64,000 nt of DNA from Bacteroidota bacterium (GTDB taxonomy: Bacteria > Bacteroidota > Bacteroidia > UKL13-3). This document shows, in pieces, positions 1 to 38,370 of this stretch (positions within the stretch are counted from its first letter, which is position 1; every line of letters starts with the position of its first letter). The notes beneath the pieces are model-generated. The model saw only the letters and a list, made by a program, of their open reading frames with translations. It was not told the origin of the DNA and searched no databases. The position numbers and the translations under genes were made by a program. The DNA is taken from positions 186,001 to 250,000 of the forward strand of contig JAIYAT010000007.1 of NCBI GenBank assembly GCA_027488905.1, in the 5' to 3' direction.

Positions 1-157
1 CAATACGCTTGGTAAAGGATAACACAACTTCGATAAGAGAGATGAATGGTTTAAACATAATTGATTGTCTTAAATGAAAGATATAAATGAGTAAAGGAAA
101 ATTGAACTTAAAATTAATCAATATTGTGAGCGTAAATCAAATTAACGTAATTTAATT

Positions 158-1780
158 ATGGGGCTCCCAATCAATATTGAAGAATTAGTAAACGGCAATA
201 CCATTGAATGGGAGCGGCTAGAGTTCAAGCAAGGCTGGAATCCAGAAGATGTAATTCATTCGATTTGCGCATTTGCCAATGACCTCCACAATTGGGGTGG
301 TGGTTACATTATTATTGGCATTGCTGAGAATGATGGACAACCTCTTTTTCCTCCAGTTGGTTTACAACATGAGCAAGCGGATGCCATTCAAAAGAAAATT
401 ATTGAGCTTGGAAATAAAGTTCAGCCGAACTATTTCCCAATTGCACAACCATATGTGTTACAAGGGCAACAAATATTAATATTGTGGTGTCCTGCTGGAG
501 ATAACCGAATTTATACAGCTCCATCCTCCTTAGGAAGTAATGGCGGCACACGTGAAGCTTATGTACGAGTTGGCTCAAACAGTATAATTGCCAGAGGCGA
601 AATATTAAGGCGCCTACAAGAGCTAACCGCGCGTATCCCTTTTGACGATCGCGTGAATAATCAAGCAAGCATTCAGGATTTAGATTTAGGACTGATTCAA
701 GCGCATCTGCAAGAAGTTAAGAGTGGTTTATATGAAGAAAGTAAATCTATGTCATTTGAAGATTTATGTAGAACTATGTTTATCGCAAAAGGATCAAATG
801 AAAATGTACGTCCAGTAAATGTTGGATTGCTTTTTTTCTGCAAAGAGCCTGAACGTTTTTTTAATAGAGCTTGGATTGAACTGGTTTGGCATAAAGACAA
901 TACAAGCACAAACTACAAAGAATATTATTTTAAAGGGCCTTTGCAAAAGCAATTGCGCGATACTTTATCGTTTTTTCAAACCAATATAATTGCAGAACAA
1001 GTAGTAAAAGTTGCAACCAAAGCGGAAGCCAACAGGTTTTATAATTTCCCTTACTCAGCAGTTGAAGAAGCGCTGTCTAATGCTGTATATCATAAAAGTT
1101 ACGAATTAGGAAGTCCAATTGAAATACAGGTATGGCCCGATAAAATTGAAATATTAAGTTTCCCAGGTCCAGTTCCTCCAGTTAATACCATAGTTTTGAA
1201 AACCCACAGACGAATTGTAGCCAGGGAATATAGAAATAGACGAATTGGTGATTTTCTAAAAGAATTACATTTAACGGAAGGCAGGGGCACTGGATTTCCA
1301 ACTATTTATAAAGCAATGGCTGATAATGGTTCACCTGCACCTACTTTTGACACAGATGAAACCAGCACCTATGTTTTGGCTACTTTGCCTGCTCATGATG
1401 GCATGAGTAACGGAGCTAGTAACGGAGTAAATGTCCCTGTTTTCAAAGACTTAGAGGAGATTTTGACTTTTAGTAACGGAGCTGGTAACGGAGCTAGTAA
1501 TGGAGTTGGAAATTTGGCCATAGAAATAATTAATACAGAAATTCACGACAGGGTTAATGAAATATTAGAAATTCTAACGGTTCGGATGAAAAGAAGTGAA
1601 TTGTTTGAAAAAATGGATTTAAGCAACCAATCAAAAAACAGGGCAAAATATCTTGACCCATTAATTGAAAATGGCTGGATTGAAATGGAGTTTCCAGAAG
1701 AAAGAACGCATCCAAATCAAACGTACCAGATAACTGAGGCTGGAAATAGAATATTAAAATTGTTAAGTAACGGAAGCTAA
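158..1780 (+). CDS. AlbA_2 (Schlafen-type) ATP-binding protein of the RM locus
   Basis: The N-terminal ~150 residues look like the AlbA_2 DNA-binding domain (EFKQGW near the start, GGGYIIIGIAEN at about residue 46-57). The middle carries a GHKL-type ATPase resembling the RecG-like HATPase_c_4 group (residues ~300-410, EEALSNAVYHKSYE then GRGTGFPTIYKAM). A winged-helix-like C-terminus follows. Between them lies a low-complexity linker of repeated Asn-Gly units (SNGASNG, about residues 418-455), a known habit of this family. It lies 13 bp upstream of hsdM and probably shares its transcript. Such proteins often accompany type I RM loci, where a regulatory or accessory defence role is suspected but not settled. 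Confidence 0.8.
   Translation: MGLPINIEELVNGNTIEWERLEFKQGWNPEDVIHSICAFANDLHNWGGGYIIIGIAENDGQPLFPPVGLQHEQADAIQKKIIELGNKVQPNYFPIAQPYVLQGQQILILWCPAGDNRIYTAPSSLGSNGGTREAYVRVGSNSIIARGEILRRLQELTARIPFDDRVNNQASIQDLDLGLIQAHLQEVKSGLYEESKSMSFEDLCRTMFIAKGSNENVRPVNVGLLFFCKEPERFFNRAWIELVWHKDNTSTNYKEYYFKGPLQKQLRDTLSFFQTNIIAEQVVKVATKAEANRFYNFPYSAVEEALSNAVYHKSYELGSPIEIQVWPDKIEILSFPGPVPPVNTIVLKTHRRIVAREYRNRRIGDFLKELHLTEGRGTGFPTIYKAMADNGSPAPTFDTDETSTYVLATLPAHDGMSNGASNGVNVPVFKDLEEILTFSNGAGNGASNGVGNLAIEIINTEIHDRVNEILEILTVRMKRSELFEKMDLSNQSKNRAKYLDPLIENGWIEMEFPEERTHPNQTYQITEAGNRILKLLSNGS
1417..1515 (+). repeat. Degenerate Asn-Gly-encoding repeat
   Basis: Copies of a ~12-nt unit close to agtaacggagct recur at about 1417, 1471 and 1483-1510. 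They encode the SNGASNG/SNGAGNGASNG linker between the ATPase and winged-helix parts of the AlbA_2 protein. An isolated related stretch (agtaacggaagc) forms the extreme C-terminus. Copy number could vary in frame by slippage. Confidence 0.6.
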
Positions 1781-1793
1781 AAAAGTAATAAAC

Positions 1794-3380
1794 ATGTCAG
1801 AAGACCAAAAACGAATACTAGAACAACAGCTATGGAACATTGCCAATACGTTGCGAGGCAAAATGAATGCAGATGAATTCCGTGATTATATTCTAGGGTT
1901 TATTTTCTATAAATATTTGAGTGAAAAGATGGATCTCTTCGCTAATGAAATATTGAAACAAGATAAAATTAAATTTCGTGAAATAACCTCTAAAACCGCA
2001 AATGGAAGTGAGTTTATTGACGCCATTAGAGAAGAAGCACTAGAGAAATTGGGTTATTTTTTAAAGCCTGAAGAATTGTTTTCGGAGGTGGCAAAGCGCG
2101 GTATGGGCGACAATGAGGATGTAGATAAATTTGATGAAACAAAAACCAATTTCATTTTAGAAGACCTACAAAAGATTCTAATCAACATCCAATTGAGTAC
2201 CATGGGTACTGATAGCGAGGAGGATTTTGACAACCTCTTTGAAGATATGGATTTGAACAGTACCAAATTGGGTAAAACCGCGGATGCCCGCAATTTAATT
2301 ATTGCAAAAGTATTAACGCATTTGGATAAAATTGATTTCAAATTAAATCATACCGAATTGGATGTTTTGGGCGATGCATACGAATATCTCATAGGTCAAT
2401 TTGCTAGTGGTGCTGGTAAAAAAGCTGGAGAGTTTTATACGCCACAAGAAGTTTCTAAAATATTGGCAAAGATTGTAACTACAGGTAAACACAAGCTAAA
2501 ATCTGTTTACGACCCTACCTGTGGTTCTGGTTCATTATTGCTTCGTGTAGCAAGAGAAGTAAAAGAAGTAAATACTTTTTACGGGCAAGAAATGAATCGC
2601 ACAACATACAACCTTGCTAGAATGAATATGATTTTGCATGGGGTTCATTACCGCAAATTTGATATTAAGCAGGAAGATACACTAGAACATCCCCAGCATA
2701 TTGACCAGCAATTTGAGGCAATTGTAGCAAATCCTCCTTTTTCGGCTCAATGGAGTGCCAATCCATTATTTACAAGTGACGACCGATTTAGTCAATATGG
2801 AAAACTTGCGCCAGGCAGCAAGGCAGATTACGCTTTTGTGCAGCACATGATACACCATTTGGCCGATAATGGTACTATGGCAATAGTTTTACCACACGGG
2901 GTATTGTTTCGTGGAGGAGCAGAATTGCATATACGTAAATATCTAATTGAAAATAAAAACTTCTTAGATGCTGTTATTGGCTTACCTGCAAATATTTTTT
3001 ATGGCACAAGCATTCCAACTTGCATTTTAGTTTTCAAAAAATGTCGCGAAAATCCTGATGATGTCATGTTTATAGATGCTAGCAATGATTTTGACAAAGT
3101 AAAAACACAAAACATTTTGCGCCCCGAACACATTGATAAGATTGTTGAAACGTATCGTAATAGAACTGTAATTGAAAAATACAGTCATTGCGCTTCTTTG
3201 CAGGAAATTGCGGACAATGAGTATAACCTGAATATTCCTCGATATGTTGATACATTTGAGGAGGAGGAAGAAATAGATATATATGCCGTTATGAAAGAAA
3301 TTAAAACGCTTGAAGCAAAACGATCAGACTTGGATAAACAGATTGATGTGTATTTTAAAGAATTGGGGTTAATTTTTTAA
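1794..3380 (+). CDS. hsdM: Type I restriction-modification system methyltransferase subunit HsdM
   Basis: 528 residues, full length for HsdM. The N-terminal helical HsdM_N domain (LWNIANTLRGKMNADEFRDYILGFIFYKYLSEKM) is followed by the N6-adenine methylase domain, with AdoMet motif I (DPTCGSGSLLLRV, ~residues 240-252) and catalytic motif IV (NPPFS, ~314). Two HsdM and one HsdS form the trimeric methylase that protects host DNA; with HsdR it restricts. It lies 13 bp after the AlbA_2 gene and 48 bp before hsdS, consistent with an operon. All key motifs are intact. Confidence 0.95.
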   Translation: MSEDQKRILEQQLWNIANTLRGKMNADEFRDYILGFIFYKYLSEKMDLFANEILKQDKIKFREITSKTANGSEFIDAIREEALEKLGYFLKPEELFSEVAKRGMGDNEDVDKFDETKTNFILEDLQKILINIQLSTMGTDSEEDFDNLFEDMDLNSTKLGKTADARNLIIAKVLTHLDKIDFKLNHTELDVLGDAYEYLIGQFASGAGKKAGEFYTPQEVSKILAKIVTTGKHKLKSVYDPTCGSGSLLLRVAREVKEVNTFYGQEMNRTTYNLARMNMILHGVHYRKFDIKQEDTLEHPQHIDQQFEAIVANPPFSAQWSANPLFTSDDRFSQYGKLAPGSKADYAFVQHMIHHLADNGTMAIVLPHGVLFRGGAELHIRKYLIENKNFLDAVIGLPANIFYGTSIPTCILVFKKCRENPDDVMFIDASNDFDKVKTQNILRPEHIDKIVETYRNRTVIEKYSHCASLQEIADNEYNLNIPRYVDTFEEEEEIDIYAVMKEIKTLEAKRSDLDKQIDVYFKELGLIF

Positions 3381-3428
3381 TTCCATTCAATCCTTAATGT
3401 TTATACGAGTAGCAAAATAATATTCAAG

Positions 3429-4715
3429 ATGACGACTAAGAAACAGAAAGTAGGTAATGTTCCAAATTTGAGATTCCCTGGGTTTGAAGGAGAATGGAAA
3501 AAGAAGAAATTGGGGGAGGTGGCTGAGTTTAAAGTTACCAATTCATTTTCGAGAGAAAACTTAAATTATGAAAATGGAAGTGTAAAGAATATTCATTATG
3601 GCGACATCCATACCAAGTTTCAAACCCTATTTGATATTTCAAAGGAAAGAGTGCCATACATAAATGAGGAAATTTCAATAAATAGAATTTCGGAAGATTT
3701 TTATTGTAAGGATGGAGATATTGTTTTTGCCGATGCTTCGGAGGATTTGAATGACATTGGCAAGAGTATAGAGATTTTAAATATTGCAAACCAAAAACTT
3801 TTAGCAGGATTACACACATTGCTTGGAAGGCCTAAACCCAATGAGTTTTATCCAGGTTTTGCAGGTTATCTTTTTCTCTCAAAATCAGTTAGAACACAAA
3901 TTCAACGAGAGGCACAAGGTGCAAAGGTTTTGGGTATTAGCGTTGGTAGAATCTCAAAAGTTAACTTAACTTATCCTTCCCTTGATGAACAGAGGCAAAT
4001 TAGCCGCCTACTTTCAATAATTGATGAAAGAATCCAAACTCAAAGCAAAATAATTGAAGAGTTAAAATTACTAAAGAGTACGCTTTGTAAAAAGATATTT
4101 TCTAAGCTGCTAAGGTTTAAAGATGATAGCGGCAAAGGTTTTCCTGATTGGCAGTTGAAAAGGTTGGGGGACGTTTTTTATTCCGAAAAAGGGAAAGGAA
4201 TTTCTAAAAATAAAGTCATTGAAAATGGAAAATTCGAATGTGTATTGTATGGAGAGCTATACACAAAATACAAAGAGGTGATTTTTGATGTTGTAAGTAA
4301 AACCGATGAAAATGATGGCCTAAAATCTCAAGTAGGTGATTTGTTATTACCAAGTTCGACCACCACAACCGGGATTGATTTGGCTAAAGTAACTGCAATT
4401 AATAAAGAAAATGTCTTATTAGGAGGTGATATTACAGTTTTACGAACTAAAGGGGAAATCAATAATGTTTTTTATGCTTATTATTTATCAAACCAGAAAA
4501 AAGTTGAAATAGCGAGTTACGCGCAGGGGAGCACTATTGTTCATTTGTATTACAATCACATAAAAGGAATGATAATTGAAATGCCTTCACTAAATGAACA
4601 AAATAAGATTGTCAAATCATTTTCGATTATTGATGAGAAAATTGAAACAGAAATAAAGCTCCTACAAAAATTACTAAATCAGAAAAAGTATCTGTTGGCA
4701 AATCTATTTATATAA
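3429..4715 (+). CDS. hsdS: Type I restriction system specificity subunit HsdS (expressed copy)
   Basis: 428 residues with the two-TRD layout: TRD1 at ~15-200, a conserved central helix (LDEQRQISRLLSIIDERIQTQSKIIEELKLL), TRD2 at ~240-400 opened by KGFPDW, and a distal helix ending LLANLFI. HsdS sets the recognition sequence by binding one half-site with each TRD. This is the only hsdS piece in the locus that has an ATG and lies directly behind hsdM, so it should be the active allele. Its 5' end (3456-3490) and centre (4076-4174) recur in inverse orientation downstream, so its TRDs are exchangeable. Confidence 0.93.
   Translation: MTTKKQKVGNVPNLRFPGFEGEWKKKKLGEVAEFKVTNSFSRENLNYENGSVKNIHYGDIHTKFQTLFDISKERVPYINEEISINRISEDFYCKDGDIVFADASEDLNDIGKSIEILNIANQKLLAGLHTLLGRPKPNEFYPGFAGYLFLSKSVRTQIQREAQGAKVLGISVGRISKVNLTYPSLDEQRQISRLLSIIDERIQTQSKIIEELKLLKSTLCKKIFSKLLRFKDDSGKGFPDWQLKRLGDVFYSEKGKGISKNKVIENGKFECVLYGELYTKYKEVIFDVVSKTDENDGLKSQVGDLLLPSSTTTTGIDLAKVTAINKENVLLGGDITVLRTKGEINNVFYAYYLSNQKKVEIASYAQGSTIVHLYYNHIKGMIIEMPSLNEQNKIVKSFSIIDEKIETEIKLLQKLLNQKKYLLANLFI
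3456..3490 (+). repeat. hsdS inverted repeat IR1, left copy
   Basis: This 5' coding stretch of hsdS (encoding NVPNLRFPGFE) matches the reverse complement of 7082-7115 at all but about two positions. Recombination between the copies would flip the 3.6-kb block and join the active start to the minus-strand allele. Confidence 0.85.
4076..4174 (+). repeat. hsdS inverted repeat IR2, left copy
   Basis: The central segment of hsdS, from STLCKKIF through the KGFPDW entry to TRD2, matches the reverse complement of 5266-5362 with scattered differences. Exchange here would replace only TRD2 of the active gene. Confidence 0.85.
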
Positions 4716-5379
4716 ATAAGTTGGCCAATAACCATTGCTTTTGTTTCATTAATAATGAATGAATATTCTCGTTTGTGTTTATTTTCTCATCAACATCTGA
4801 GAAAAAAGTAGCGATTTTTATTTGCTCCTCGAGTAAAGGGAGGCGTATTGCTAATTTCATTAGTTGAATTTTAGACATATTATACCTTGTACTTCCTTGT
4901 GCCAGCTTCATTATTTGGTTTCTAACATCCTCACTTCGAAATAAGAATTGGGCGAATTCGGGATTTAATGTTTTGTGAGAATTCGGTCGATATCCAAAGC
5001 AGAAACTATTCAAATACAAATCCTCTACATCTTCAAGTAAAACAGATGACATTCCCACTTCATCAGGAGTTTCCGAGGATGTAGTAAATAAAACATCTCC
5101 ATATTTCACTTTGTTTTTACTTTCATTCTTTTCAATTTCAACAAATTCAAATCTTGATGTATCAATTTTGGAGTTATCAAATACCTGCTTGTATTGAATA
5201 TATGGTCTGCCTTGGCCAAAATCTTTTTTTGTTTTAGCTGTTAAGCCATTATATATTTCACCAACCTCCCCCAACTTCCTTACATCCCAATCAGGGAAAA
5301 CTTTTCCGCTATCATTTTTAAACCGTAATAGTTGGGCAAATATTTTCTTACTAAGCGTACTCCCTAAGGAAATTAAATC
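4708..5379 (-). CDS. Silent hsdS half-gene cassette (TRD2 type)
   Basis: The reading frame opens after an in-frame TAG (5380-5382) and has no ATG near its 5' end, so it is a donor cassette rather than an independently translated gene. It starts with the central conserved HsdS segment (STLSKKIFAQLLRFKNDSG, then FPDW), continues through one TRD, and ends in the helix and LLANLFI tail shared with the active hsdS. It converges on hsdS, and the two stop regions overlap by 8 bp around tatttatataaata. Inversion through IR2 would graft this TRD onto the active gene. An annotation pipeline might call a shorter restriction endonuclease subunit S from the TTG at 5274. Confidence 0.85.
   Translation of the reverse strand, partial: DLISLGSTLSKKIFAQLLRFKNDSGKVFPDWDVRKLGEVGEIYNGLTAKTKKDFGQGRPYIQYKQVFDNSKIDTSRFEFVEIEKNESKNKVKYGDVLFTTSSETPDEVGMSSVLLEDVEDLYLNSFCFGYRPNSHKTLNPEFAQFLFRSEDVRNQIMKLAQGSTRYNMSKIQLMKLAIRLPLLEEQIKIATFFSDVDEKINTNENIHSLLMKQKQWLLANLFI
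5266..5362 (-). repeat. hsdS inverted repeat IR2, right copy
   Basis: Reverse-complement partner of 4076-4174, containing the STLSKKIF and VFPDWD coding region at the head of the silent TRD cassette. Confidence 0.85.
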
Positions 5380-5383
5380 CTAA

Positions 5384-6013
5384 ATTAAAGCAATAAAGGA
5401 AGAATTGTTTACCAAACAATTAAGGTTTAAAAATAATATTGGTAGAAATTTTCCTGATTGGGAAACAAAGAAATTGGGAGAGGTTTTACTGAAAAATTCA
5501 AATAAAAATAAGGGACAAAAGTGTTCTGTTGTTCAAAGTGTCAGTAACAAACACGGTTTTATAAATCAAGAAGAAATGTTTGAAGACAGGAGAGTTGCAA
5601 GTAAAGACACTTCAAATTATTATGTAATTGAAAAGGGCCATTTTGCGTATAATCCATCAAGAATTGATGTTGGTTCTTTAGCATATAAATTTGATGAGAA
5701 AAGTTCTGTAATTAGTCCATTGTATATTTCATTTAAGGCAAATAACAACTTTCTTAAAGATGGTTATCTTTTGAACTGGTTTTCAACTTGGCAGTTTTTA
5801 GTGCAAATGAATAGTTCATTTGAAGGTAGTGTGAGAAATACCCTAAGTTATGAATCATTGGTTCGGATGAAAATTTCAACACCTTCAATTGAAGAACAAA
5901 CTCACATAGCCGATTTCTTGTGTACCATAGAGGAAAAAATCGAGAATGAAAAAGCCACAATAGAACAATTTGAAACTCAGAAAGTGTATTTGTTACAACA
6001 GATGTTTATATGA
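5384..6013 (+). CDS. Silent hsdS half-gene cassette (one TRD)
   Basis: The frame opens after an in-frame TAA (5381-5383) without a convincing start; the only early candidate is TTG at 5405. It encodes the central HsdS segment (EELFTKQLRFKN, NFPDWE), one TRD, the conserved helix (IEEQTHIADFLCTIEEKIE) and the terminal LLQQMFI. It resembles the TRD2 half of hsdS in the same orientation and converges with the next cassette at a 46-bp palindrome. It probably acts as another TRD donor. A degraded duplicate is the alternative. Confidence 0.8.
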   Translation: MKAIKEELFTKQLRFKNNIGRNFPDWETKKLGEVLLKNSNKNKGQKCSVVQSVSNKHGFINQEEMFEDRRVASKDTSNYYVIEKGHFAYNPSRIDVGSLAYKFDEKSSVISPLYISFKANNNFLKDGYLLNWFSTWQFLVQMNSSFEGSVRNTLSYESLVRMKISTPSIEEQTHIADFLCTIEEKIENEKATIEQFETQKVYLLQQMFI

Positions 6014-6032
6014 ACATCTGTTGTAACAAATA
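5987..6032. repeat. 46-bp near-perfect palindrome at convergent hsdS ends
   Basis: Two perfect 20-bp arms (5987-6006 and 6013-6032) surround a 6-bp AT centre. Each arm encodes the same C-terminal LLQQMFI of the two convergent hsdS cassettes, whose stop codons overlap here. It is another potential crossover site of the shufflon and could also fold as a bidirectional terminator-like hairpin. Confidence 0.85.
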
Positions 6033-7121
6033 TTGTTTTTGTATCGTTAAATTCGAGGCAATGAGTTGTTCTATTTCAAGTTTATCCTCGAGAAAATTCA
6101 ATCCACTAACAATTTTCAACTGGTTGTTGTAGCTCGGATAGACAATCTCAAAATCTTCTATATCCTTTTTCTGAATATTGGGTAAACCTGAACCAATGCG
6201 AAGTGCCATTATTTTTTGCTCCGAGAACTTTAAAAAATAGTATAAATATTTATTTGAAATACTAGAATCAACATTAATCAAGGTATAACAATGGCCACCG
6301 CTCCAAAATTCTTCCTTATTAAACTGAACATAACCACAAGAGTTCCCTCCTTCACTAATTGAAATAGTATCAGCTTCAGAATTCTGTTTTGAATGATAGC
6401 CTGATGGGGAAATTCCTCCGTTCATTACTCTGAAAGTTCCAGTTTCAGATAATTCAGAACCATTTATTTGCTCCCCCTTTTTTACTTTGCATATTGATCC
6501 TAACGATGTTTTGGAAAACTGGTATTTATTGCCGTTAAAAGTATTTTGTCCAAGTGCTTTAATTAAGGTTTTAAGTTGCTCAATTATTTTGTTTTGGGTG
6601 CTAATGCGGTCATCAATTAGAGTAAGTAAAGTGGCTATTTTTTTTTGTTCTTGGGGTGAACAAATAGAAATGGGTATTTCCATTAACCCACTACTTGAAA
6701 TAGCTGGATAGCTAGTGCCTGTACACCTTAGCATCACTTCTTTGTTAAAATTAGGCATATTCAATAAGTGGTAAATAAATGAAGAGTTATGCAAAGTTCT
6801 TATTTGAGCATAACCAGTAGATGCTACCCACTGTCTATCATCAGTCGTTCTATACAATAAATTGTTAAGTTGATATGGTCGAACGCATTGAAATAAAATA
6901 TCGTTTTCATTTAAAACTCTTTGTGCTCTGCTCGGAGCATCTGACTTTTCAACAACTACTTCCTTTACAAGCTCACCCTTGACTACCGACTCAAGGTCAA
7001 TGTAGACGAACTCCTCACTCAAAGGTTCTGTTTTAGGATTTACTACGCATTCATTACCTAAAATAGTTTGTTCCCAGTCATCCTCAAACCCTGGGAATCT
7101 CAAATTTGGAACATTGGATAC
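6006..7121 (-). CDS. Silent two-TRD hsdS allele, inverted
   Basis: The frame is open from just after an in-frame TAA near 7122 and encodes an almost complete HsdS: VSNVPNLRFPGFEDDW at the start, TRD1, central helix (PQEQKKIATLLTLIDDRISTQNKIIEQLKTL), a second TRD (from about KVKKGEQINGSE) and the LLQQMFI tail. It lacks the ATG and the first codons that the active hsdS has. Its 5' part is IR1. Inversion across IR1 would place this whole allele behind hsdM and silence the current one. The recombinase gene starts about 60 bp beyond its head, the usual place for a shufflon recombinase. Confidence 0.85.
   Translation of the reverse strand, partial: VSNVPNLRFPGFEDDWEQTILGNECVVNPKTEPLSEEFVYIDLESVVKGELVKEVVVEKSDAPSRAQRVLNENDILFQCVRPYQLNNLLYRTTDDRQWVASTGYAQIRTLHNSSFIYHLLNMPNFNKEVMLRCTGTSYPAISSSGLMEIPISICSPQEQKKIATLLTLIDDRISTQNKIIEQLKTLIKALGQNTFNGNKYQFSKTSLGSICKVKKGEQINGSELSETGTFRVMNGGISPSGYHSKQNSEADTISISEGGNSCGYVQFNKEEFWSGGHCYTLINVDSSISNKYLYYFLKFSEQKIMALRIGSGLPNIQKKDIEDFEIVYPSYNNQLKIVSGLNFLEDKLEIEQLIASNLTIQKQYLLQQMFI
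7082..7115 (-). repeat. hsdS inverted repeat IR1, right copy
   Basis: Reverse-complement partner of 3456-3490, located at the 5' end of the silent two-TRD allele. Confidence 0.85.
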
Positions 7122-7181
7122 TTAGCGGTTTCAAATGCTTAAATGGTACATTTTGAGTTTTCACCAACTAATTCAAAAAAC

Positions 7182-8108
7182 ATGAACCAACAAAAAACAA
7201 TTTCAGAAATCATTAACCTATGGAAAACAGACAAAAAGCAATACGTTAAAAAGTCGAGCTTCTCGGCTTATGTGCTTTTAGTTGAAAATCATTTGTTACC
7301 AGTATTTGGCAATAAATACAACCTTGAAGATTCGGACGTTCAAGATTTTGTATTCCGAAAACTGGAGCAAGGACTAAGCCAAAAAACAATTAAAGATATT
7401 TTAATTGTTTTGAAAATGGTGTTTAAATTCGGAGCAAAAAACAAGTGGATTGAGCACAAACAGTTCGATGTTCAATTCCCTACAGAAAGAGAAAAACACT
7501 CCATTGAAGTATTAAGCCGTACCAATCAAAAAAGAGTGATGAATTACATACAAGAGCACTTCACCTTTAGAAATTTAGGCGTTTACATTTGTTTAAGTGC
7601 AGGAATTAGAATTGGTGAAATTTGCGCATTAACTTGGGAGGACATTAACACTGATACTGAAATAATTAGTATCAGAAGAACTATTCAACGAATTTATATG
7701 GTTGAGGATGGAAGTCGAAAAACAGAATTGGTATTGGACACTCCAAAAACGAAGAATTCAATAAGGGAAATACCAATGAGTAGAGATTTGCTAAAAATGT
7801 TAAAGCCAATGAAAAAAATTGTAAATAATTCCTTTTATGTGTTAACCAACGATGCAAAACCCACTGAACCTAGAACTTACAGAAGTTACTACAAAATTTT
7901 AATGGAAGAATTAGGAATGCCCGCATTAAAATTCCATGGCCTTAGACACAGTTTTGCTACAAGATGTATTGAAAGTAATTGCGATTATAAAACTGTAAGT
8001 GTTTTATTAGGACATTCCAATATTAGTACCACTTTAAACCTCTATGTACATCCTAATTTTGAGCAAAAGAAAAAATGCATCAATCAAATGCTCAAAGGAT
8101 TGAATTAG
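7182..8108 (+). CDS. Tyrosine recombinase, probable hsdS shufflon invertase
   Basis: From the ATG at 7182 (preferred over 7143 because MNQQKTIS begins the core-binding domain directly) it encodes 308 residues. An N-terminal SAM-like DNA-binding domain precedes the catalytic domain, with the Arg of SAGIRIGEI, HGLRHSFATR (HxxR), and LLGHSNISTTLNLY (His and catalytic Tyr). All catalytic residues are present. It stands between the inverted hsdS pieces and hsdR, as in known phase-variable type I systems, so it most likely inverts the hsdS repeats. An integrase role for a wider element is the alternative. Confidence 0.85.
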   Translation: MNQQKTISEIINLWKTDKKQYVKKSSFSAYVLLVENHLLPVFGNKYNLEDSDVQDFVFRKLEQGLSQKTIKDILIVLKMVFKFGAKNKWIEHKQFDVQFPTEREKHSIEVLSRTNQKRVMNYIQEHFTFRNLGVYICLSAGIRIGEICALTWEDINTDTEIISIRRTIQRIYMVEDGSRKTELVLDTPKTKNSIREIPMSRDLLKMLKPMKKIVNNSFYVLTNDAKPTEPRTYRSYYKILMEELGMPALKFHGLRHSFATRCIESNCDYKTVSVLLGHSNISTTLNLYVHPNFEQKKKCINQMLKGLN

Positions 8109-8131
8109 ATTGACCCCGACAAAAATTAAGG

Positions 8132-8206
8132 TTAGGAAATTGCAAAACAAATTAGTCTCACAAAAATTGACCATATTTGAAAAACAAACATTTTGCAATT
8201 TTCTAA
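8132..8206. repeat. Long stem-loop between recombinase and hsdR
   Basis: Inverted arms at 8132-8147 and 8191-8206 (ttttgcaatt core) match at 15 of 16 positions around a 43-nt loop. They fill most of the 136-bp gap before hsdR. This could be a recombinase binding or crossover site, or a terminator/attenuator that limits HsdR synthesis. Confidence 0.6.
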
Positions 8207-8244
8207 TCCCTGATTTTGCAGAACAATAAACTGAAAGAGAATTT

Positions 8245-11154
8245 ATGTCGAAACAGTCTGAACAAATATTAGAAGAACAACTCATTACCCTTTTGCAAAA
8301 GCTTGGCTATACCTATGTGTCTGTTTCAGATGAAAAAGGGATGTTGACTAACCTTAAGGCGCAATTAGAAAAGCACAATAGCATTGTTTTCTCCATCCGT
8401 GAATTTGAAAAGGTTATTAATATTCTAAATAAAGGTTCGGTATTTGAAAAAAGTAAAATATTGCGCCAAAAACAGCATATAGTTAGAGATAATGGAGATA
8501 ATCTTTATTTTGAATTCCTGAATACCGAACACTGGTGCCAAAATCAGTATCAGGTAACCAACCAAGTAAGCCAAGAAGGAAAATACAAAAACCGATATGA
8601 TATAACAATACTGATTAATGGCGTGCCATTGGTTCAAATAGAACTCAAACGGAGAGGCTTAGAGCTAAAGGAGGCTTTCAACCAAATTAATCGTTATCAA
8701 CGACATTCATTTGGAGCCAATTCTGCATTATATCAGTATGTTCAAATTTTCATCATTAGCAATGGAGTAAACACAAAGTATTACGCCAATAATAGAACAC
8801 AGAGTTTCAAGCAAACATTTTATTGGACAGATATTGAAAACAAAAGACTTTCAAATATTCTAAATGGCTTTACAGATGCCTTTTTAGAACCTTGCCATAT
8901 AAGTAAAATGATATGTAAATACATTGTTTTAAATGAAGCCTATAAAATTCCAATGGTGCTTCGTCCTTATCAATTTTATGCAGTTGAGGCATTAATTGAA
9001 AGGGTGAAAAACTCTACAAAGAATGGTTACATTTGGCATACCACAGGTTCAGGCAAAACTTTAACAAGTTTTAAAGCGAGTCAAGTTTTAATGAATTTAC
9101 CACAAATACACAAGGTTGTTTTTGTGGTAGACAGAAAAGACTTGGATTTTCAAACAACTAAAGAATTTAACAGTTTTCAAGAAGGTTGTATTGATGGTAC
9201 CGACAATACTAGCAACTTAGTAAAACAGTTTATTGGAACTTATGTAGATAAAAAAGGAGAAGCCAAGAATTCTAAATTAATTGTAACCACAATTCAAAAG
9301 CTAAACACAGCGATCAGCAAATTGAAGTATGAGGCAAAAATGGCTGATTTGAAAGATAAGCGTATTATTTTCATTTTTGATGAATGCCACAGAAGTCAAT
9401 TTGGAGAAACGCATAAACGTATCAAAGAGTTTTTTAATAACAGTCAAATGTTTGGCTTTACAGGTACTCCAATATTTGCCGATAATGCTGCAAAGAATGA
9501 ACATGGCAAACGAACTACTAAAGATTTATTTGAAGACTGTTTGCACAAGTATGTTATAACAGATGCCATCAAAGACGAAAATGTCTTGAAGTTTTCTGTG
9601 GAATACGTTGGCAGATATAAACACAAAGACGGGAGAGAATCAAATATTGATATTGAAGTAGAAGATATTGATACCAAGGAGCTGATGGAAGATGATACCC
9701 GATTAGAAAAAATTACAGACTATATAATCGCGCATCACAACCGTAAAACTCATAGCCGAGTATTTACTGCAATGTTTTGTATTAATAATGTTCCAACTTT
9801 AATTAAGTACGTTGATTTATTCAAAAGAAAAAAGGCACTAGGGCTGCATAATTTAAATGTTGCAACCATTTTCAGTTACGGTACAAATGAGGATGATGCG
9901 GATGCCAATGGCTTTATAAACTTTGAGAGAGATTTTGACAATGTAGAATTAAACGCTGTAGCTGAGGATAAGTCAAGTTATGGGGTTAATGTACATACTA
10001 GAGAAAAATTAGAGGAGTTCATCGGCGATTACAATAAATTGTTTGGCGATAATTTTACAACAAAGGATAGCCAAAGTTTTTACAACTATTACAATGATAT
10101 ATCAAAGAAAGTAAAGGAACGTAAAATTGATATTTTATTAGTAGTTAATATGTTTTTGACTGGATTTGATAGCCCAACATTGAATACCATGTATGTTGAT
10201 AAAAATCTAAAATATCATGGACTTATTCAAGCTTATAGTAGAACAAACAGAATATTAAACGAACAAAAAAGTCAAGGAAATATTGTTGCATTCCGTAACT
10301 TAAAAAATCGCACTGATGAGGCAATTACTTTGTTTAGTAACAAAGAAGCAATTGAGGTAATCATCATGAAACCCTATGAGGACTATATCGGGAAGTTTAA
10401 TGAAGCGGTTGATGTTCTTTTAGAAATAACACCAACAACAAATAGTGTTGATGATTTAGTTACGGAAGAAGATGAGTTAAATTTCATAAAGGCATTTAGG
10501 GATTTAATGAGAGTAAAAAATATTCTCAGTGCATTTGCCGATTTTAAATGGGAAGACTTAAAAATGAGTGAACAGCTTTTTAATGATTTCCAAAGTAAGT
10601 ATTTGGATTTATGGCAAAAAGTTAAATCGGATCATCAAAAAGAGAAAGTTTCCATTTTAGAAGATGTTGATTTTGAATTAGAGCTGATTCATCGTGACGA
10701 GATAAATGTCGCCTATATAATTCAACTCCTAATCAAGTTAAAATCGCAAGCACAGAAAGATACAACTAAAGTGGAACAAGAAATTTTCAACCTGTTAAGT
10801 ACAGAAACAACATTGCGTAGCAAACGGGAACTAATTGAAAAATTCATACAGGAGAATTTGCCAGTAATAATAGATACGGACGAAATTGAACCTGAGTTTG
10901 ATAAATTCTGGAGCAAGGAGCAACAACAAGCATTTACAAAATTAGTTTCTGATGAGAATTTATCGGCTGAAAAAACTGAAAAATTAATTGAGGATTATTT
11001 ATTCGCGGAACGTCAGCCCATGCGTGATGAGGTGTTGGAGCTTGTAAATGGAGAAAAGCCAAGTTTGTTGCACCGCAAAAAAATTGGTGATAGAATTCTA
11101 AAGAGAATTATTGATTTTGTTGAAACCTTTATTAATGGCATGAATACAGGTTGA
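8245..11154 (+). CDS. hsdR: Type I restriction enzyme endonuclease/translocase subunit HsdR
   Basis: 969 residues, a normal HsdR length. The N-terminal endonuclease domain (residues ~90-200) shows YDITILINGVPLVQIELKRRG, the D...ExK nuclease core. The SF2 translocase follows with HTTGSGKTLTSF (Walker A, ~272), FIFDECHRSQFGE (DECH motif, ~377), FTGTPIF (motif III), and motif VI around LIQAYSRTNRIL. A helical HsdM-binding C-terminus completes it. It cuts unmethylated DNA after ATP-driven translocation, with HsdM and HsdS. It is separated from hsdM by the shufflon, so it may have its own promoter. Confidence 0.95.
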   Translation: MSKQSEQILEEQLITLLQKLGYTYVSVSDEKGMLTNLKAQLEKHNSIVFSIREFEKVINILNKGSVFEKSKILRQKQHIVRDNGDNLYFEFLNTEHWCQNQYQVTNQVSQEGKYKNRYDITILINGVPLVQIELKRRGLELKEAFNQINRYQRHSFGANSALYQYVQIFIISNGVNTKYYANNRTQSFKQTFYWTDIENKRLSNILNGFTDAFLEPCHISKMICKYIVLNEAYKIPMVLRPYQFYAVEALIERVKNSTKNGYIWHTTGSGKTLTSFKASQVLMNLPQIHKVVFVVDRKDLDFQTTKEFNSFQEGCIDGTDNTSNLVKQFIGTYVDKKGEAKNSKLIVTTIQKLNTAISKLKYEAKMADLKDKRIIFIFDECHRSQFGETHKRIKEFFNNSQMFGFTGTPIFADNAAKNEHGKRTTKDLFEDCLHKYVITDAIKDENVLKFSVEYVGRYKHKDGRESNIDIEVEDIDTKELMEDDTRLEKITDYIIAHHNRKTHSRVFTAMFCINNVPTLIKYVDLFKRKKALGLHNLNVATIFSYGTNEDDADANGFINFERDFDNVELNAVAEDKSSYGVNVHTREKLEEFIGDYNKLFGDNFTTKDSQSFYNYYNDISKKVKERKIDILLVVNMFLTGFDSPTLNTMYVDKNLKYHGLIQAYSRTNRILNEQKSQGNIVAFRNLKNRTDEAITLFSNKEAIEVIIMKPYEDYIGKFNEAVDVLLEITPTTNSVDDLVTEEDELNFIKAFRDLMRVKNILSAFADFKWEDLKMSEQLFNDFQSKYLDLWQKVKSDHQKEKVSILEDVDFELELIHRDEINVAYIIQLLIKLKSQAQKDTTKVEQEIFNLLSTETTLRSKRELIEKFIQENLPVIIDTDEIEPEFDKFWSKEQQQAFTKLVSDENLSAEKTEKLIEDYLFAERQPMRDEVLELVNGEKPSLLHRKKIGDRILKRIIDFVETFINGMNTG

Positions 11155-11208
11155 TTCATAAAAGCGTCTTTTTATAATCACCCATTTCTAAAATAGTTAA
11201 AAGCAAAT

Positions 11209-11826
11209 ATGGAAGGAATCATTTATTTACTATCAAACCCCGCAATGCCGGGAATTATAAAGATTGGCAAAACAATTCATGAAGATGTGAAAGTTAGAAT
11301 GGCACAATTGTATTCGACAGGAGTACCAGTGCCATTTGAGTGCTTGTATGCGGCAAAAGTTGCGAATATTGATGATGTTGAAAAAGCATTTCACACCGCC
11401 TTTGGTCCAAATAGGTTAAACCCTAGAAGGGAATTTTTTGAAATTGAATCGGGTCAAGCAATTGCAATTTTAAAATTATTAGAATTAGAAAATGTAAGTC
11501 CACTAGTAGAACAAGAAGTTAATGTAGTTGACCCCATTGAAATTGAAGCAGGCAAAGCCTTTGCTCAAAAACGCCCAAGGCTAAACTTTGTAGAAATGGG
11601 TATTCCAATTGGATCAGAGTTGGTTTTTAATAACAATGGAGAAATTGCAACAGTTATTTCAGAGCGAAATGTTAGGTTTCGAAATGAGGAAACAAGCCTA
11701 ACTAATGCCACAAGGCAGGCCTTAGGCGAAGGATATGCCTATAATGTTGCTCCTGGTCCATATTGGAGGTTTAATGGAAGAAAACTTCGGGATATTTATA
11801 ATGAGACTTATCAGAGTATAGAGTAG
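11209..11826 (+). CDS. GIY-YIG nuclease family protein
   Basis: 205 residues. The N-terminal ~90 residues match the T5orf172/MUG113-like GIY-YIG fold: GIIYLLSNP followed by IIKIGKT, with the downstream RMAQL and the FHTAFGPNRLNPRREFFEI segment carrying conserved Arg and Glu. The C-terminal ~90 residues (IPIGSELVFNNNGEIATVIS...) look like a small domain found behind restriction-type nucleases. It lies 54 bp after hsdR on the same strand, so it probably belongs to the same defence block. Substrate and target are unknown. Confidence 0.75.
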   Translation: MEGIIYLLSNPAMPGIIKIGKTIHEDVKVRMAQLYSTGVPVPFECLYAAKVANIDDVEKAFHTAFGPNRLNPRREFFEIESGQAIAILKLLELENVSPLVEQEVNVVDPIEIEAGKAFAQKRPRLNFVEMGIPIGSELVFNNNGEIATVISERNVRFRNEETSLTNATRQALGEGYAYNVAPGPYWRFNGRKLRDIYNETYQSIE

Positions 11827-11847
11827 TTGTTCAAATTGATTTAACGT

Positions 11848-12666
11848 ATGGAAAATGAAAATGAAGAAATTAGTGTTTTAGATGAACTATTCATCAATAG
11901 CGAACATTATCATTCAAGTGTTGAGTACTTTAATTTATTGAAATTTATAAGAAAATTTCCTTCAATTTCTCCTTTCAATGCGTTTCTAATTCAAATGCAA
12001 AACAATGGAGCAAAATTTGTCTTAACACCAAAAGGTTGGAGATTTTATAAAAGAACAGTAAAACGAAATGCTAGACCAATGGTAATACTAATACCTTTTG
12101 GACCAGTTTCATTTGTATATGATGTTGAAGATACAATTGGTCCTCCTCTGCCCGACGAGGTAATACATCCATTTAAAACAACTGGCAATATTGATATTAA
12201 AGTATACAACAACACGATTTCAAATATGTCAAAAGAAGGTATAAATTATTTCGAAGAAAAAATGCATAAAAACTCAGCTGGTTATGCTTCTTTAGTGGAT
12301 GGAAAATTGCGTGTAACTATAAATTCAGAATATGGTTTAAATGAACGATATTCAACCCTTGTTCATGAACTAGCGCATGTTTTTTGTGGACATTTGGGCA
12401 TAAACAATGGTTCTTGGTGGACTTCTCGAATTGGATTTAATACTGACCTAATTGAAATAGAAGCAGAATCCGTGTCGTATTTGGTTTGTAAAAGATTGGG
12501 CGTTAAAACCACTTCAAGTTCATATTTGGCAAATTATATAAGGAAGGATAAGGAAATGCCTAAAATAAGTTTAAATACAATTCTTACCGTAAGCAATTAC
12601 ATTGAACAAATGGGTAAGGCTAACTTTAAATCAAAATCAAAAAAAACTATTTCAATTAGTATTTAA
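11848..12666 (+). CDS. ImmA/IrrE family metallopeptidase
   Basis: 272 residues. The zinc-protease signature HELAH occurs in LVHELAHVFCGHLG (~residues 174-187), followed by ELIEIEAESVSYLVCKRLG-like residues that supply the third ligand. The N-terminal FNAFLIQMQNNGAKFVLTPKGW resembles the ssDNA-binding ArdC-like N-terminal domain. ImmA/IrrE peptidases typically cleave repressors or act in mobile-element and anti-restriction contexts. It lies 21 bp after the GIY-YIG gene. The protease assignment is firm; target and biological role are inferred only by family. Confidence 0.8.
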   Translation: MENENEEISVLDELFINSEHYHSSVEYFNLLKFIRKFPSISPFNAFLIQMQNNGAKFVLTPKGWRFYKRTVKRNARPMVILIPFGPVSFVYDVEDTIGPPLPDEVIHPFKTTGNIDIKVYNNTISNMSKEGINYFEEKMHKNSAGYASLVDGKLRVTINSEYGLNERYSTLVHELAHVFCGHLGINNGSWWTSRIGFNTDLIEIEAESVSYLVCKRLGVKTTSSSYLANYIRKDKEMPKISLNTILTVSNYIEQMGKANFKSKSKKTISISI

Positions 12667-12763
12667 ATAATTATTTAAGTTTCTTGAAGTTTAAAGATTC
12701 ATTGCTAGAGTGTTTTTTTTAATAATGTTGAAAACTAATAATATATTGCGCTAAATTGCTTTT

Positions 12764-13381
12764 ATGGAACTTTCAGCTAATCAAAATGTTATTGTAATTG
12801 CAGGCGCTTGGAACCCTGCGATTTTCTCAAAAGAATGGGTTGAGAATTACCTTTTTGACAGCCAATTGGTCGAAGGACCTCCTAATTTTCTTAATTTGCC
12901 TGGTAATCCTAAATTGATTTTTGAGGGGATGGTATTTAAATTGAATGGCGTTGGGATATCTTGTAAACAAGGAATGTTGACAATATTGGTAGATTCAATG
13001 GATTCGGACCACTTTGTAAAGGCTGAGGAACTTGCTTATAAATTAGTTGAATTTTTACCACATACTCCAGTGAATGCATTTGGTATTAATTTTCAATTTT
13101 CAGAACCTAATGACCAAATACCCAATAATTTAAGCGAAATAAATTATAATTCAAAAGTTTTCGGAAACGAAACGAATGAAAACAACATTCATTTAACAAA
13201 TGATAAGTATTGTTTTGAAAATGGCGAAATAAACATTGCCACTCATATTTCTAATAAAACAAAAAAAGTTGACATTAATTTTCATTTTCCAATAAATAAT
13301 TTTATTGAATTAAAGGCGAGATTAACTCCTAATAAAATTTCTGAACTCCTACCTATAGCGAATCAAATTGTAAACCAATAG
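12764..13381 (+). CDS. Uncharacterised protein in defence cluster
   Basis: 205 residues, not recognised. The first ~115 residues (VIVIAGAWNPAIFSKEWVENYLF ... EGMVFKLNGVGISCKQGMLTILVD) look like an alpha/beta domain. An Asn-rich linker (~120-150) leads to a C-terminal beta-rich part. There are no membrane segments or signal peptide. It precedes the Panacea-domain gene by 8 bp on the same strand, so the two are likely co-expressed, possibly as part of a multi-gene toxin-antitoxin or defence unit. Confidence 0.7.
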   Translation: MELSANQNVIVIAGAWNPAIFSKEWVENYLFDSQLVEGPPNFLNLPGNPKLIFEGMVFKLNGVGISCKQGMLTILVDSMDSDHFVKAEELAYKLVEFLPHTPVNAFGINFQFSEPNDQIPNNLSEINYNSKVFGNETNENNIHLTNDKYCFENGEINIATHISNKTKKVDINFHFPINNFIELKARLTPNKISELLPIANQIVNQ

Positions 13382-13389
13382 ATATTTTT

Positions 13390-14022
13390 ATGGAACCCCA
13401 AAAGACAAGTACAATTTTTATTAGTCAGGATGAAGTTTCTACAAAAACTAAAGATTTTGAATTTTTATCTTTTATTAATATCCCTGAAACTGAAAATGAG
13501 TTAAACGCTGATACTAATCTAAGCAAAACACAAATTTTCAATAATTTGGAATCCAAAGAATTGAAATACAAGAAGGTTAATTTGGAAACTAATGTTTTTG
13601 ATGTGTCAGCATTAATTATAAAAATATTAGGTCCAATTTCTGCACTTAAGCTGCAAAAACTTGTTTATTATTGTCAAGCTTGGTCGTTAGTTTGGGATGA
13701 TAAGCCAATTTTCAAGGAGCGAATTGAGGCTTGGGCAAATGGTCCTGTGGTGCCAGAACTTTATGCATTTCATAGAGGCCAATATGAGGTGAGTTCGGTT
13801 CAAGTAGGTAATTTCAGGAAACTTTCGCAAACACAAACAGAGACAGTGCAATCTGTAGTTAGTTTTTATGGAAATAAATCTGGAAAATTTTTAATTGATT
13901 TGACCCATTCTGAAGCTCCATGGATTGAATCAAGGTCTGGATTAGGACCAATGGAAAGAGGAAATAGAGAGATTTTATTGTCAACAATTGCAGAATATTA
14001 TGGCTCCCTCAAAGAAGAATAA
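13390..14022 (+). CDS. Panacea-domain (DUF4065/SocA-like) antitoxin
   Basis: 210 residues. After a ~65-residue variable N-terminus, the C-terminal domain carries the Panacea hallmarks LKLQKLVYYCQAWSLVW (~95-111), EAWANGPVVPELY, and LTHSEAPW near 178-185. Panacea proteins neutralise a wide range of toxins through a shared fold with variable extra regions. The next gene starts inside its last codons (overlap 13 or more bp), the usual antitoxin-toxin arrangement. The unusually long N-terminal extension may be the toxin-specific part. Confidence 0.8.
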   Translation: MEPQKTSTIFISQDEVSTKTKDFEFLSFINIPETENELNADTNLSKTQIFNNLESKELKYKKVNLETNVFDVSALIIKILGPISALKLQKLVYYCQAWSLVWDDKPIFKERIEAWANGPVVPELYAFHRGQYEVSSVQVGNFRKLSQTQTETVQSVVSFYGNKSGKFLIDLTHSEAPWIESRSGLGPMERGNREILLSTIAEYYGSLKEE

Positions 14023-14674
14023 ACAGCCTTTTTCAATTCAACAGCCGCAAATTAAAAAACAACCAATTATTGAACAAAAATCTCCTGCAAATTACAAAGA
14101 CCATTTAACGTCTTGGCAATTGTCCAAAATTGATTGGGAAATTGAAAATGAAGGGATTCCAAAAGCCGATATTAGAAAAAAATTTCTGTTTGCATTTTCA
14201 GAGGACACACCTTTAGCTTTAGAAATTGTTGAATTTGATACTGAACTTTTAGACACCTTAAATAAATTTAACGATAGGACATTTAATGGATATGGTGATT
14301 TTTTTGATTGTCTTTCACTAAATTATTCAAAACCAATACCTTCAAGTATAATTAGTAGGTTATCGATGTGTTTAAAAAACCATCTTTTGTTTGAAACTGT
14401 ATTGGGATTTTTCAAAGAGTATGAGAAAAAGACTTGGTTGGAAATTGAATCAGAAAAGGCCAGCGGAGGTAGAACTAAACATCATGATATTGAAATCGGT
14501 AAGTTAGGTAAAGTAGCACAAAGGAGGTTAAGTCAATTAGAGTTGGATGATGCAGAATACTTATTCTCTATAAGAATTACTAAAATGTTTCGAATGTGGG
14601 GCTTTAGGATTTTTGGACATTTTCAAATACTATGGTTTGACCCTGAGCATAAAATTTATCCAATTGAGAATTAA
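14000..14674 (+). CDS. Putative toxin partner of the Panacea antitoxin
   Basis: 225 codons from the ATG at 14000; an upstream in-frame ATG at 13988 is possible. The N-terminal ~40 residues are Lys/Gln-rich and likely disordered. The C-terminus (RITKMFRMWGFRIFGHFQILWFDPEHKIYP) has the WFDPxHxIYP ending seen in several small uncharacterised toxins. It overlaps the Panacea gene by 23 bp, implying translational coupling. Toxin function is inferred from position only; no catalytic motif was identified. Confidence 0.65.
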   Translation: MAPSKKNKQPFSIQQPQIKKQPIIEQKSPANYKDHLTSWQLSKIDWEIENEGIPKADIRKKFLFAFSEDTPLALEIVEFDTELLDTLNKFNDRTFNGYGDFFDCLSLNYSKPIPSSIISRLSMCLKNHLLFETVLGFFKEYEKKTWLEIESEKASGGRTKHHDIEIGKLGKVAQRRLSQLELDDAEYLFSIRITKMFRMWGFRIFGHFQILWFDPEHKIYPIEN

Positions 14675-16318: not shown

Positions 16319-16321
16319 GAT

Positions 16322-19993: not shown

Positions 19994-20640
19994 AATTCTT
20001 TTAATTGAAATTCAACTTCTAAAGCCAATGCTTCCATTTCTAAAATGGATTCAGGGTTATGGGGTTTAAGATGCGCTTGCATAAAGCTTAAAATATGCTT
20101 GTTGGCATCTTCAATAAGCAGGTAATTAATATTGTCTAGAATAAAATCACCTTTATGGATTTGCAAGTTGTAATCTGCACCTTGTGAGTATAGGGTAATA
20201 TGAAAATCTTCATATCTATAAATGACTAAAAATTCCTGATCGCTTGGGTCAAAGTAATCTATAAACCACTGGCCAGGTAAATCTAAAATTAGCTTACCAT
20301 CTCCAAGGGCTTTGCCAATTGTGCTTTCAACCAACTTTCTATCACCTTCTATCGTTATTGGAAACTCTCGAGACGTTGAAAGTTTCTCAATGCCACATAT
20401 TTTTTCAGGATACATCGAAAACCAAGTGTTAAAGGTACACAGCTCGGTAAATGTTAGCGGCTCTTTTGGAAACTCCCTATCTTTTAAATACACTTCCACC
20501 ATGGCTTTCTCATCCCTGTCGGGAGGGAAAACACCTGAGCGCATCAAAGCAACGTGCCCAGCTTTTGGGTCGACTTTTGATAGAATATCCCGCAGCATAA
20601 ATACGCGAGCTCTTTGGTATCTTGGCTCTTGCTTATCCAT
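19990..20640 (-). CDS. Uncharacterised protein between JAB and helicase genes
   Basis: 216 residues, no recognised domain. The first ~85 residues (RDILSKVDPKAGHVALMRSGVFPPDRDEKAMVEVYL) are helical; the middle is beta-rich (EFLVIYRYEDFHITLYSQGADYNLQIHKGDFIL). The end, EMEALALEVEFQLKEL, closely resembles the C-terminus of the helicase encoded next. It overlaps both neighbours (1 bp with the JAB gene, 4 bp with the helicase), so the three are translationally coupled and may form a complex. Confidence 0.7.
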   Translation of the reverse strand: MDKQEPRYQRARVFMLRDILSKVDPKAGHVALMRSGVFPPDRDEKAMVEVYLKDREFPKEPLTFTELCTFNTWFSMYPEKICGIEKLSTSREFPITIEGDRKLVESTIGKALGDGKLILDLPGQWFIDYFDPSDQEFLVIYRYEDFHITLYSQGADYNLQIHKGDFILDNINYLLIEDANKHILSFMQAHLKPHNPESILEMEALALEVEFQLKEL

Positions 20641-21398: not shown

Positions 21399-21400
21399 TG

Positions 21401-22159: not shown

Positions 22160-22174
22160 AGCGATTTGATACTA

Positions 22175-38166: not shown

Positions 38167-38370
38167 CTTTAAGTTTTTTAAAATGGCCCCCCATTTTTGG
38201 GTCAATAATGGTGACATTTTTCCGAGTTGTCAAGCGACAAAACGGGACAGAACGCGACATTGAGCGACAACCTGTGACGTTTTTTGTGTTTTTACAAATC
38301 ACGTCACAAGTTGCAAAATGAAATTGTCGTTTTATGGCGTTTTAAGTCGTATCAAATGACCCAAAAAACC

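Follow-up and report, generated by a model that had tools for sequence, protein, structure and literature searches.

The window analysed here comprises 64,000 nucleotides (nt) of a Bacteroidota bacterium (assembly GCA_027488905.1, contig JAIYAT010000007.1, positions 186,001-250,000, forward strand) and carries at 1794-11154 a complete type I restriction-modification locus, consisting of hsdM, an hsdS gene, three silent hsdS pieces, a gene for a tyrosine recombinase and hsdR. The target-recognition gene of this locus can probably be rearranged by the locus's own recombinase, whereby the cells of one clone would mark their DNA differently. Recombinase-linked hsdS inversion, by which the single expressed hsdS would be rebuilt, is considered the best explanation of the locus (probability about 0.85). 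Gene content, silent cassettes and the anatomy of the candidate sites are seen directly in the window; judged from sequence, switching is well supported in relatives, and we infer it for the window's own organism.

Gene order and candidate recombination sites

All parts of the locus, i.e., hsdM, the expressed hsdS (hsdS-E), the pieces S1, S2 and S3, the recombinase and hsdR, were recovered by Pfam and frame analysis (Table 1). The expressed hsdS had been described as being followed by three pieces in -, +, - order that lack ATG starts, and this is borne out by the reading frames and by Methylase_S matches, which lie above the Pfam cut-off in all four hsdS pieces. Two target-recognition domains (TRDs) are found in E and S3 and one (TRD2 only) in S1 and S2, and the locus holds two TRD1 and four TRD2 modules. 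In S1, S2 and S3 the stretch before the conserved region was searched for an in-frame ATG, and none was found; S3 is closed by an in-frame TAA just outside the site A repeat, S1 by an in-frame TAG at 5382-5380 of the minus strand and S2 by an in-frame TAA at 5381-5383, whereby the stops of S1 and S2 overlap at 5380-5383. Apart from a common 18-amino-acid motif, pairwise identity of the TRDs is 18-43% in the aligned parts, hence different targets are expected.

A complete tyrosine recombinase had been claimed to lie before hsdR, and the gene is indeed present and complete, its start however having been corrected to ATG 7182. The frame offers another ATG upstream, at 7143, and ATG 7182 is the most likely start because the matches of most homologs set in at about residue 10-14. 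The motifs around R156, K202/K204, H265-R268 and H291-Y301 (numbering from 7143), which we take to be those of the catalytic residues, are 98-100% conserved among 54 aligned sequences. Among solved structures, the Int protein 6emy, presumably the Tn1549 integrase, is the best relative by sequence; a tolerance of mismatched cores by this integrase would be a lead for why imperfect sites could work in the window.

Four kinds of putative recombination sites were identified: A, which equals the inverted repeat IR1, M at the end of TRD1, and a and b, which flank a junction (J) between S1 and S2. Sites A and a had been proposed before, M and b are newly found. IR1 extends over 3448-3500/7071-7123 with 83% identity over 53 nt and a 23-nt exact core, and a search of the 3.55-Mb genome with the 20-nt A core, up to three mismatches being allowed, returned the two A arms only. 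IR2, the second inverted repeat predicted, is likewise present (4076-4175/5263-5362), with 78% identity, a longest exact run of 10 nt and a blastn E value of 2e-18 within the 3.8-kb region, to which shared protein coding contributes. IR2 taken alone as proof of recombination was rejected, as much of its identity is explained by that shared coding; it is the comparison with relatives that carries the argument. S2 and S3 are linked by an additional inverted pair (5367-5392/6555-6580; 26 nt, 85%). Within the window, the two arms agree fully in the A core and at all but 2 of 20 positions in the M core.

Table 1. Features of the restriction-modification locus (window coordinates).
Feature	Position	Strand	Basis or remark
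hsdM (DNA methyltransferase subunit)	1794-3380	+	Pfam N6_Mtase 1.5e-113, HsdM_N; NCBIfam TIGR00497 above cut-off
hsdS-E, expressed	3429-4715	+	two Methylase_S stretches; sole copy with ATG
Site A left arm (IR1 core)	3456-3478	+	23 nt identical to inverted 7093-7115
TRD1a of hsdS-E	3462-4103	+	domain limits from cross-locus hsdS domain analysis
Site M left arm	4038-4058	+	3/21 mismatches to family core
Site a left arm (IR2 start), GAGTACGCTT	4076-4085	+	repeat comparison; layout of relatives
TRD2 E2 of hsdS-E	4104-4712	+	domain limits from cross-locus hsdS domain analysis
S1, silent TRD2-only cassette	4708-5362	-	Methylase_S 2.5e-18; without ATG; TAG upstream
Junction J between S1 and S2	5353-5392	.	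conserved in 6 loci of this layout; inversion breakpoint in relatives
Site a right arm	5353-5362		within J
GGAAATTAAATCC inside J	5368-5380		
Site b left arm	5383-5392		within J
S2, silent TRD2-only cassette	~5384-6013	+	Methylase_S 2.1e-9; TAA 5381-5383 upstream
S3, silent two-domain hsdS	6006-7110	-	Methylase_S 1.7e-30, two stretches; without ATG; TAA just upstream
TRD2 S32 of S3	6009-6542	-	S3 domain
TRD1b of S3	6534-7109	-	S3 domain
Site b right arm	6555-6564	-	within 26-nt repeat 6555-6580; breakpoint in relatives
Site M right arm	6579-6599	-	identical to 21-nt family core
Site A right arm	7093-7115	-	23 nt identical to inverted 3456-3478
Tyrosine recombinase, proposed invertase	7182-8108	+	Phage_integrase 1.2e-27; conserved active-site motifs
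hsdR (restriction subunit)	8245-11154	+	HSDR_N, SWI2_SNF2, EcoR124_C; TIGR00348 above cut-off

Site homogenisation, inversion states and assembly breaks in relatives

Homogenised site cores, differing inversion states, assembly breaks at A and an association of the recombinase with inverted hsdS were seen in relatives. A recombinase scan of genome contigs identified 55 loci (L numbers in the following), 62-85% identical over the best segment, hence 56 with the window, and an hsdS domain is found in the available stretch of 41 of these 56; 40 of those 41 carry an inverted hsdS immediately upstream of their recombinase gene. The exception (L069, Mucilaginibacter oryzae) lacks an inverted hsdS, possesses an hsdS fragment that overlaps the recombinase match (L069:8798-9837) and is possibly a collapsed array. 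Twelve contigs end at most 228 nt upstream of the recombinase, before hsdS could appear, and no hsdS match was found upstream of the recombinase in L062, L082 and L083, the latter two being partial recombinase matches. Six loci (window, L031, L032, L034, L035 and L044) possess the longer layout seen in the window, in which there are two TRD2-only cassettes; junction J is common to all six, and the linkers in the window pair as in the other long-layout loci, E with S1 and S3 with S2.

Homogenisation was assessed on the premise that arm exchange by inversion makes the arms agree within a locus though loci differ. The A comparison could use 32 of the 41 loci (four were dropped because A was not found at E, the contig starting in or near A, and five lacked both orientations), and here the 20-nt core was identical within 22 of the 32 loci as compared to 7.9% of the between-locus comparisons; 591 of 640 positions matched, the best of 5000 permutations giving 553 (0/5000 reaching the observed value). 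For M (35 of 41 loci usable) the core was identical within 16 of the 35 loci versus 13.9% between loci, with 649 of 700 positions matching and 630 in the best of 5000 permutations (again 0/5000). As the within-locus excess stops outside the sites, shared codon usage is not the explanation.

Inversion states were compared among L031, L034, L035 and L044, which hold cassettes alpha and beta (96-99% identical) and gamma (87-98%) at different places, whereas a cassette delta is common to L031 and L044 only (99%) and L034 and L035 hold another cassette there. L031 146-1321 gives an inverted match to L034 (97.0% over 1176 nt) that reaches from site a to J, the recombinase region being collinear. A comparison of L031 with L044 shows gamma and delta to be identical at 18-20 of 20 positions per 20-nt window from the b core on, but at 7-11 of 20 in the three 20-nt windows before it, since each of the two cassettes follows J in one of the genomes but M in the other one. 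Identity among relatives thus breaks at a, b and J, and the patterns of L031, L034 and L044 are those which inversion at a and b would predict.

The same pair of loci points to an exchange between species. The hsdR and recombinase genes of L031 (Flavobacteriaceae PS02336) and L044 (Myroides phaeus) are 77% identical in DNA and their TRD1s are unrelated (about 50% identical), and all four TRD2 cassettes are 98-99% identical (L031:57-2530 versus L044:5981-8454) in a different inversion state; the M core agrees at 20/20 positions, and agreement drops to 14-16/20 and below immediately ahead of it. The TRD2 block seems, from these alignments, to move between species as a unit. It is tentatively suggested, as a rather doubtful possibility, that the block from M to M (four TRD2 cassettes and J) is exchanged between genomes by the recombinase besides being inverted; ordinary homologous recombination could be the alternative cause of the transfer. 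If true, species would trade a whole library of half-specificities. An interpretation of L031 versus L044 as a site-A inversion was withdrawn, as the TRD1s are unrelated and inversion at A, at M or a transfer in either orientation are hence indistinguishable, the exchange at b alone being clear.

A further line of evidence comes from the places at which assemblies break. Twenty-four contigs end less than 9 kb upstream of the recombinase, 12 of them at 76-228 nt upstream, at or beside A; for uniformly distributed contig ends the binomial probability is 1.4e-13, a rough yardstick, as repeats attract breaks. The genomes of 11 relatives were searched for hsdM, of which 10 matched (that of L048 gave no match; those of L046 and L070 matched only distantly, 44-47%), and eight genomes were then compared for contig ends. 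In three of these eight, the contig with hsdM and the one with the recombinase stop at an identical base, which lies within A or just past it. The contigs overlap at A by 30 nt in Flavobacterium rakeshii and by 43 nt in Kaistella yonginensis, and in Epilithonimonas hungarica 95 nt are common to both contigs and run into the same TRD1, as is expected from either mixed orientations or identical TRD1 copies at both ends. In UBA3849 (L074) the break lies inside A on the S3 side, the C. limigenitum contig starts in an apparent M core (judged by eye), in Epilithonimonas JDS both flanks stop just short of A, and the ends of the hsdM contigs for L043 and L071 are uninformative. G046, the only other recombinase carrier among the 64 genomes of the window's family that were searched, possesses a cassette contig which ends exactly at the A core and a recombinase contig which begins in A, 43 nt being common to both.

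Proposed mechanism and competing explanations

In the suggested mechanism, the tyrosine recombinase acts on pairs of oppositely oriented sites within the hsdS genes and flips the DNA lying between them; the expressed hsdS behind hsdM would thereby be reassembled, with two TRD1 and up to four TRD2 modules to draw on. Here, site A at the 5' end of hsdS would swap TRD1 along with its TRD2. Site a would exchange the TRD2 that follows TRD1a for S1, site b would exchange the one that follows TRD1b for S2, and recombination at M would allow the two TRD1s to switch TRD2 sets. One recombinase presumably acts at all four sites, and methylation and restriction would change as a result of inversion. A symbolic model yields four HsdS with A, a and b, four with A and M and eight with all four sites, i.e., four to eight specificities are predicted from the locus, and the earlier expectation of at least four TRD combinations is right provided that a and b work. 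With J shared by two TRD2 cassettes of opposite orientation, it would be easy to see how four to eight specificities arise from two TRD1 and four TRD2 modules; no such TRD2-pair junction is known to us from the pneumococcal SpnIII system. For the organism, subpopulations differing in methylome and in phage and plasmid acceptance are predicted, and the candidate sites A, M, a and b are testable by plasmid assay. Inversion at IR1 and IR2, as originally read from the window, gains support from the comparison with relatives, which adds the two further sites M and b.

Some observations weigh against this mechanism: the window's a, b and M repeats are 78-85% alike or mismatched in their core, below many relatives, one arrangement only was assembled, part of the similarity between sites stems from their location in conserved coding motifs, and, because of the S2 stop at 5381-5383, the crossover must fall right of this stop for a full-length protein to be formed. 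It was considered that the family is phase variable and the window's copy partly decayed, with only site A working (two HsdS states) and S1 and S2 being relics. A perfect A core next to 78% identity at a, 85% over 26 nt at b and an M core with 2 of 20 positions different would agree with such decay, as would the stop codons in J; full open TRD2 frames are, however, kept in S1 and S2, J lies outside any translated product, so that stops there are harmless if crossover occurs at the shared cores, and relatives with short cores do switch, as far as their comparison tells. Partial decay is regarded as unlikely, though deserving serious consideration.

Inversion by RecA-type homologous recombination, with the recombinase merely being a linked mobile-element integrase, is very unlikely. 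Pneumococcal spnIII recombination was reported to be independent of all known pneumococcal site-specific recombinases (PMC6620402), and the window's repeats include stretches of about 50-100 nt; the cores, however, are short and sharply bounded and thus poor substrates for homologous recombination. Moreover, inverted hsdS tracks the recombinase perfectly among hsdR homologs, which were collected from a 395-genome phylum sample (27 with a match, window included) plus two genomes of the window's genus. Leaving the window out of the counts and setting aside L190 and L197, whose contigs end and which were not evaluable, inverted hsdS was found in 6/6 loci in which the recombinase adjoins hsdR (L154, L185, L194, L195, L200, L204), but between hsdM and hsdR in 0/20 hsdR loci without it (Fisher 4.3e-6, a guide only, as the 26 loci are not phylogenetically independent). 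The inverted hsdS directly upstream of 40 of 41 evaluable recombinases argues in the same direction. The already disfavoured reading as a fixed array, with the extra hsdS pieces as leftover duplications and the repeats as nothing but conserved protein-coding motifs, is highly improbable, as the location of A and M in such motifs (PNLRFPGF; TQNKIIE) lets some similarity be expected, but within-locus identity lies far above between-locus identity, its excess ends at the site borders, and inversion states and contig breaks are seen in relatives.

Two genomes of the window's genus (G001 and G006; L152, G001:C113, and L153, G006:C233) carry an hsdR 76% identical to that of the window with a single hsdS and no recombinase there, and are the natural fixed-specificity counterpart of its system. 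The recombinase was found as a strong match in one of 19 genus genomes (the other 18 gave only E 1e-13 or weaker) and, at E <= 1e-60, in 2 of 64 family genomes and 11 of 395 genomes of the phylum sample, its identity across carriers being 62-82% with little regard to kinship. Sparse presence and identity regardless of kinship fit a horizontal spread of the module, and a well-delimited, apparently horizontally spread invertase-hsdS module is added for Bacteroidota.

Known systems and neighbouring genes

Recombinase-linked hsdS inversions across many phyla are reportedly covered by the work of Huang et al. on epigenetic invertons (Nucleic Acids Res. 2020). Switches of this kind had been described from Bacteroides fragilis and pneumococcus before, and the window locus adds a well-supported example. 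The closest known system is shufflon BB of B. fragilis NCTC 9343 (BF1839-1842), which is described as having eight HsdS, four inverted-repeat sets and a tyrosine integrase beside the last hsdS (PMC3090145). Like shufflon BB, the window possesses several hsdS in a type I locus and a tyrosine recombinase directly beside the last hsdS, and its four candidate site pairs, with eight products reachable if all work, may correspond to the four repeat sets and eight HsdS, a, b and M being imperfect in the window. The printed shufflon BB repeat, CTTATTGATGAACGTATCGCTACCCAAAACAAAATCAT (38 nt), matches the window's M regions at 30/38 (S3-mid) and 28/38 (E-mid) positions, as compared to at most 23/38 elsewhere in the window and at most 25 in 20 shuffles, coding conservation contributing to the match; for the copy of the 38-nt repeat in the related B. 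fragilis 638R shufflon, 32/38 is given (PMC3090145). Shufflon BB differs from the window in host and TRDs, and the site comparison covers the one printed 38-nt repeat.

Streptococcus pneumoniae cod/ivr (SpnIII) with PsrA is described as having silent inverted hsdS, a locus-encoded tyrosine recombinase and multiple specificities (PMC4948785, PMC7096588, PMC4190663). The window resembles it in that an expressed hsdS is accompanied by silent, inverted pieces and that the locus encodes a tyrosine recombinase; SpnIII, however, belongs to a different phylum and is described as forming six variants from three hsdS genes. In a REBASE survey, inverting type I systems are given for Porphyromonas gingivalis and Tannerella forsythia, whose hsdM, expressed hsdS and opposite-strand hsdS without ATG represent a short form of the window layout (PMC7394358), and inverting hsdS are reported to be common and to be found in Bacteroidetes (PMC7394358, PMC5903667). 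A limited look at the open-access literature found, among the titles listed, no account of this locus type in Flavobacterium or Flavobacteriaceae.

The G+C content is 31-36% across window positions 1-14000, i.e., the restriction locus and its neighbours, versus mostly 37-43% at 14-32 kb, which fits acquired DNA. Directly upstream of hsdM lies an AlbA_2/Schlafen-type gene (158-1780) with HATPase_c_4 and winged-helix domains, perhaps a regulator of the hsdM operon. Downstream of hsdR (11209-14674) a T5orf172 protein, an IrrE-like peptidase and a SocA/Panacea antitoxin-like gene (13390-14022) are found, the neighbours of the latter giving no Pfam match among those scanned; the genes of this stretch may be further defence or toxin-antitoxin genes. 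A six-gene run on the minus strand (14708-22783), which includes an AAA protein (14708-16318) and a 1223-amino-acid SNF2-type helicase (16322-19993), is a candidate defence operon. A second tyrosine recombinase (36904-38217, minus strand) with Arm-DNA-bind_5 and Phage_int_SAM_5 domains is of the mobile-element kind, unlike the hsdS-linked one, and is adjoined by a gene for an exosortase-like membrane protein (38833-40161, minus strand).

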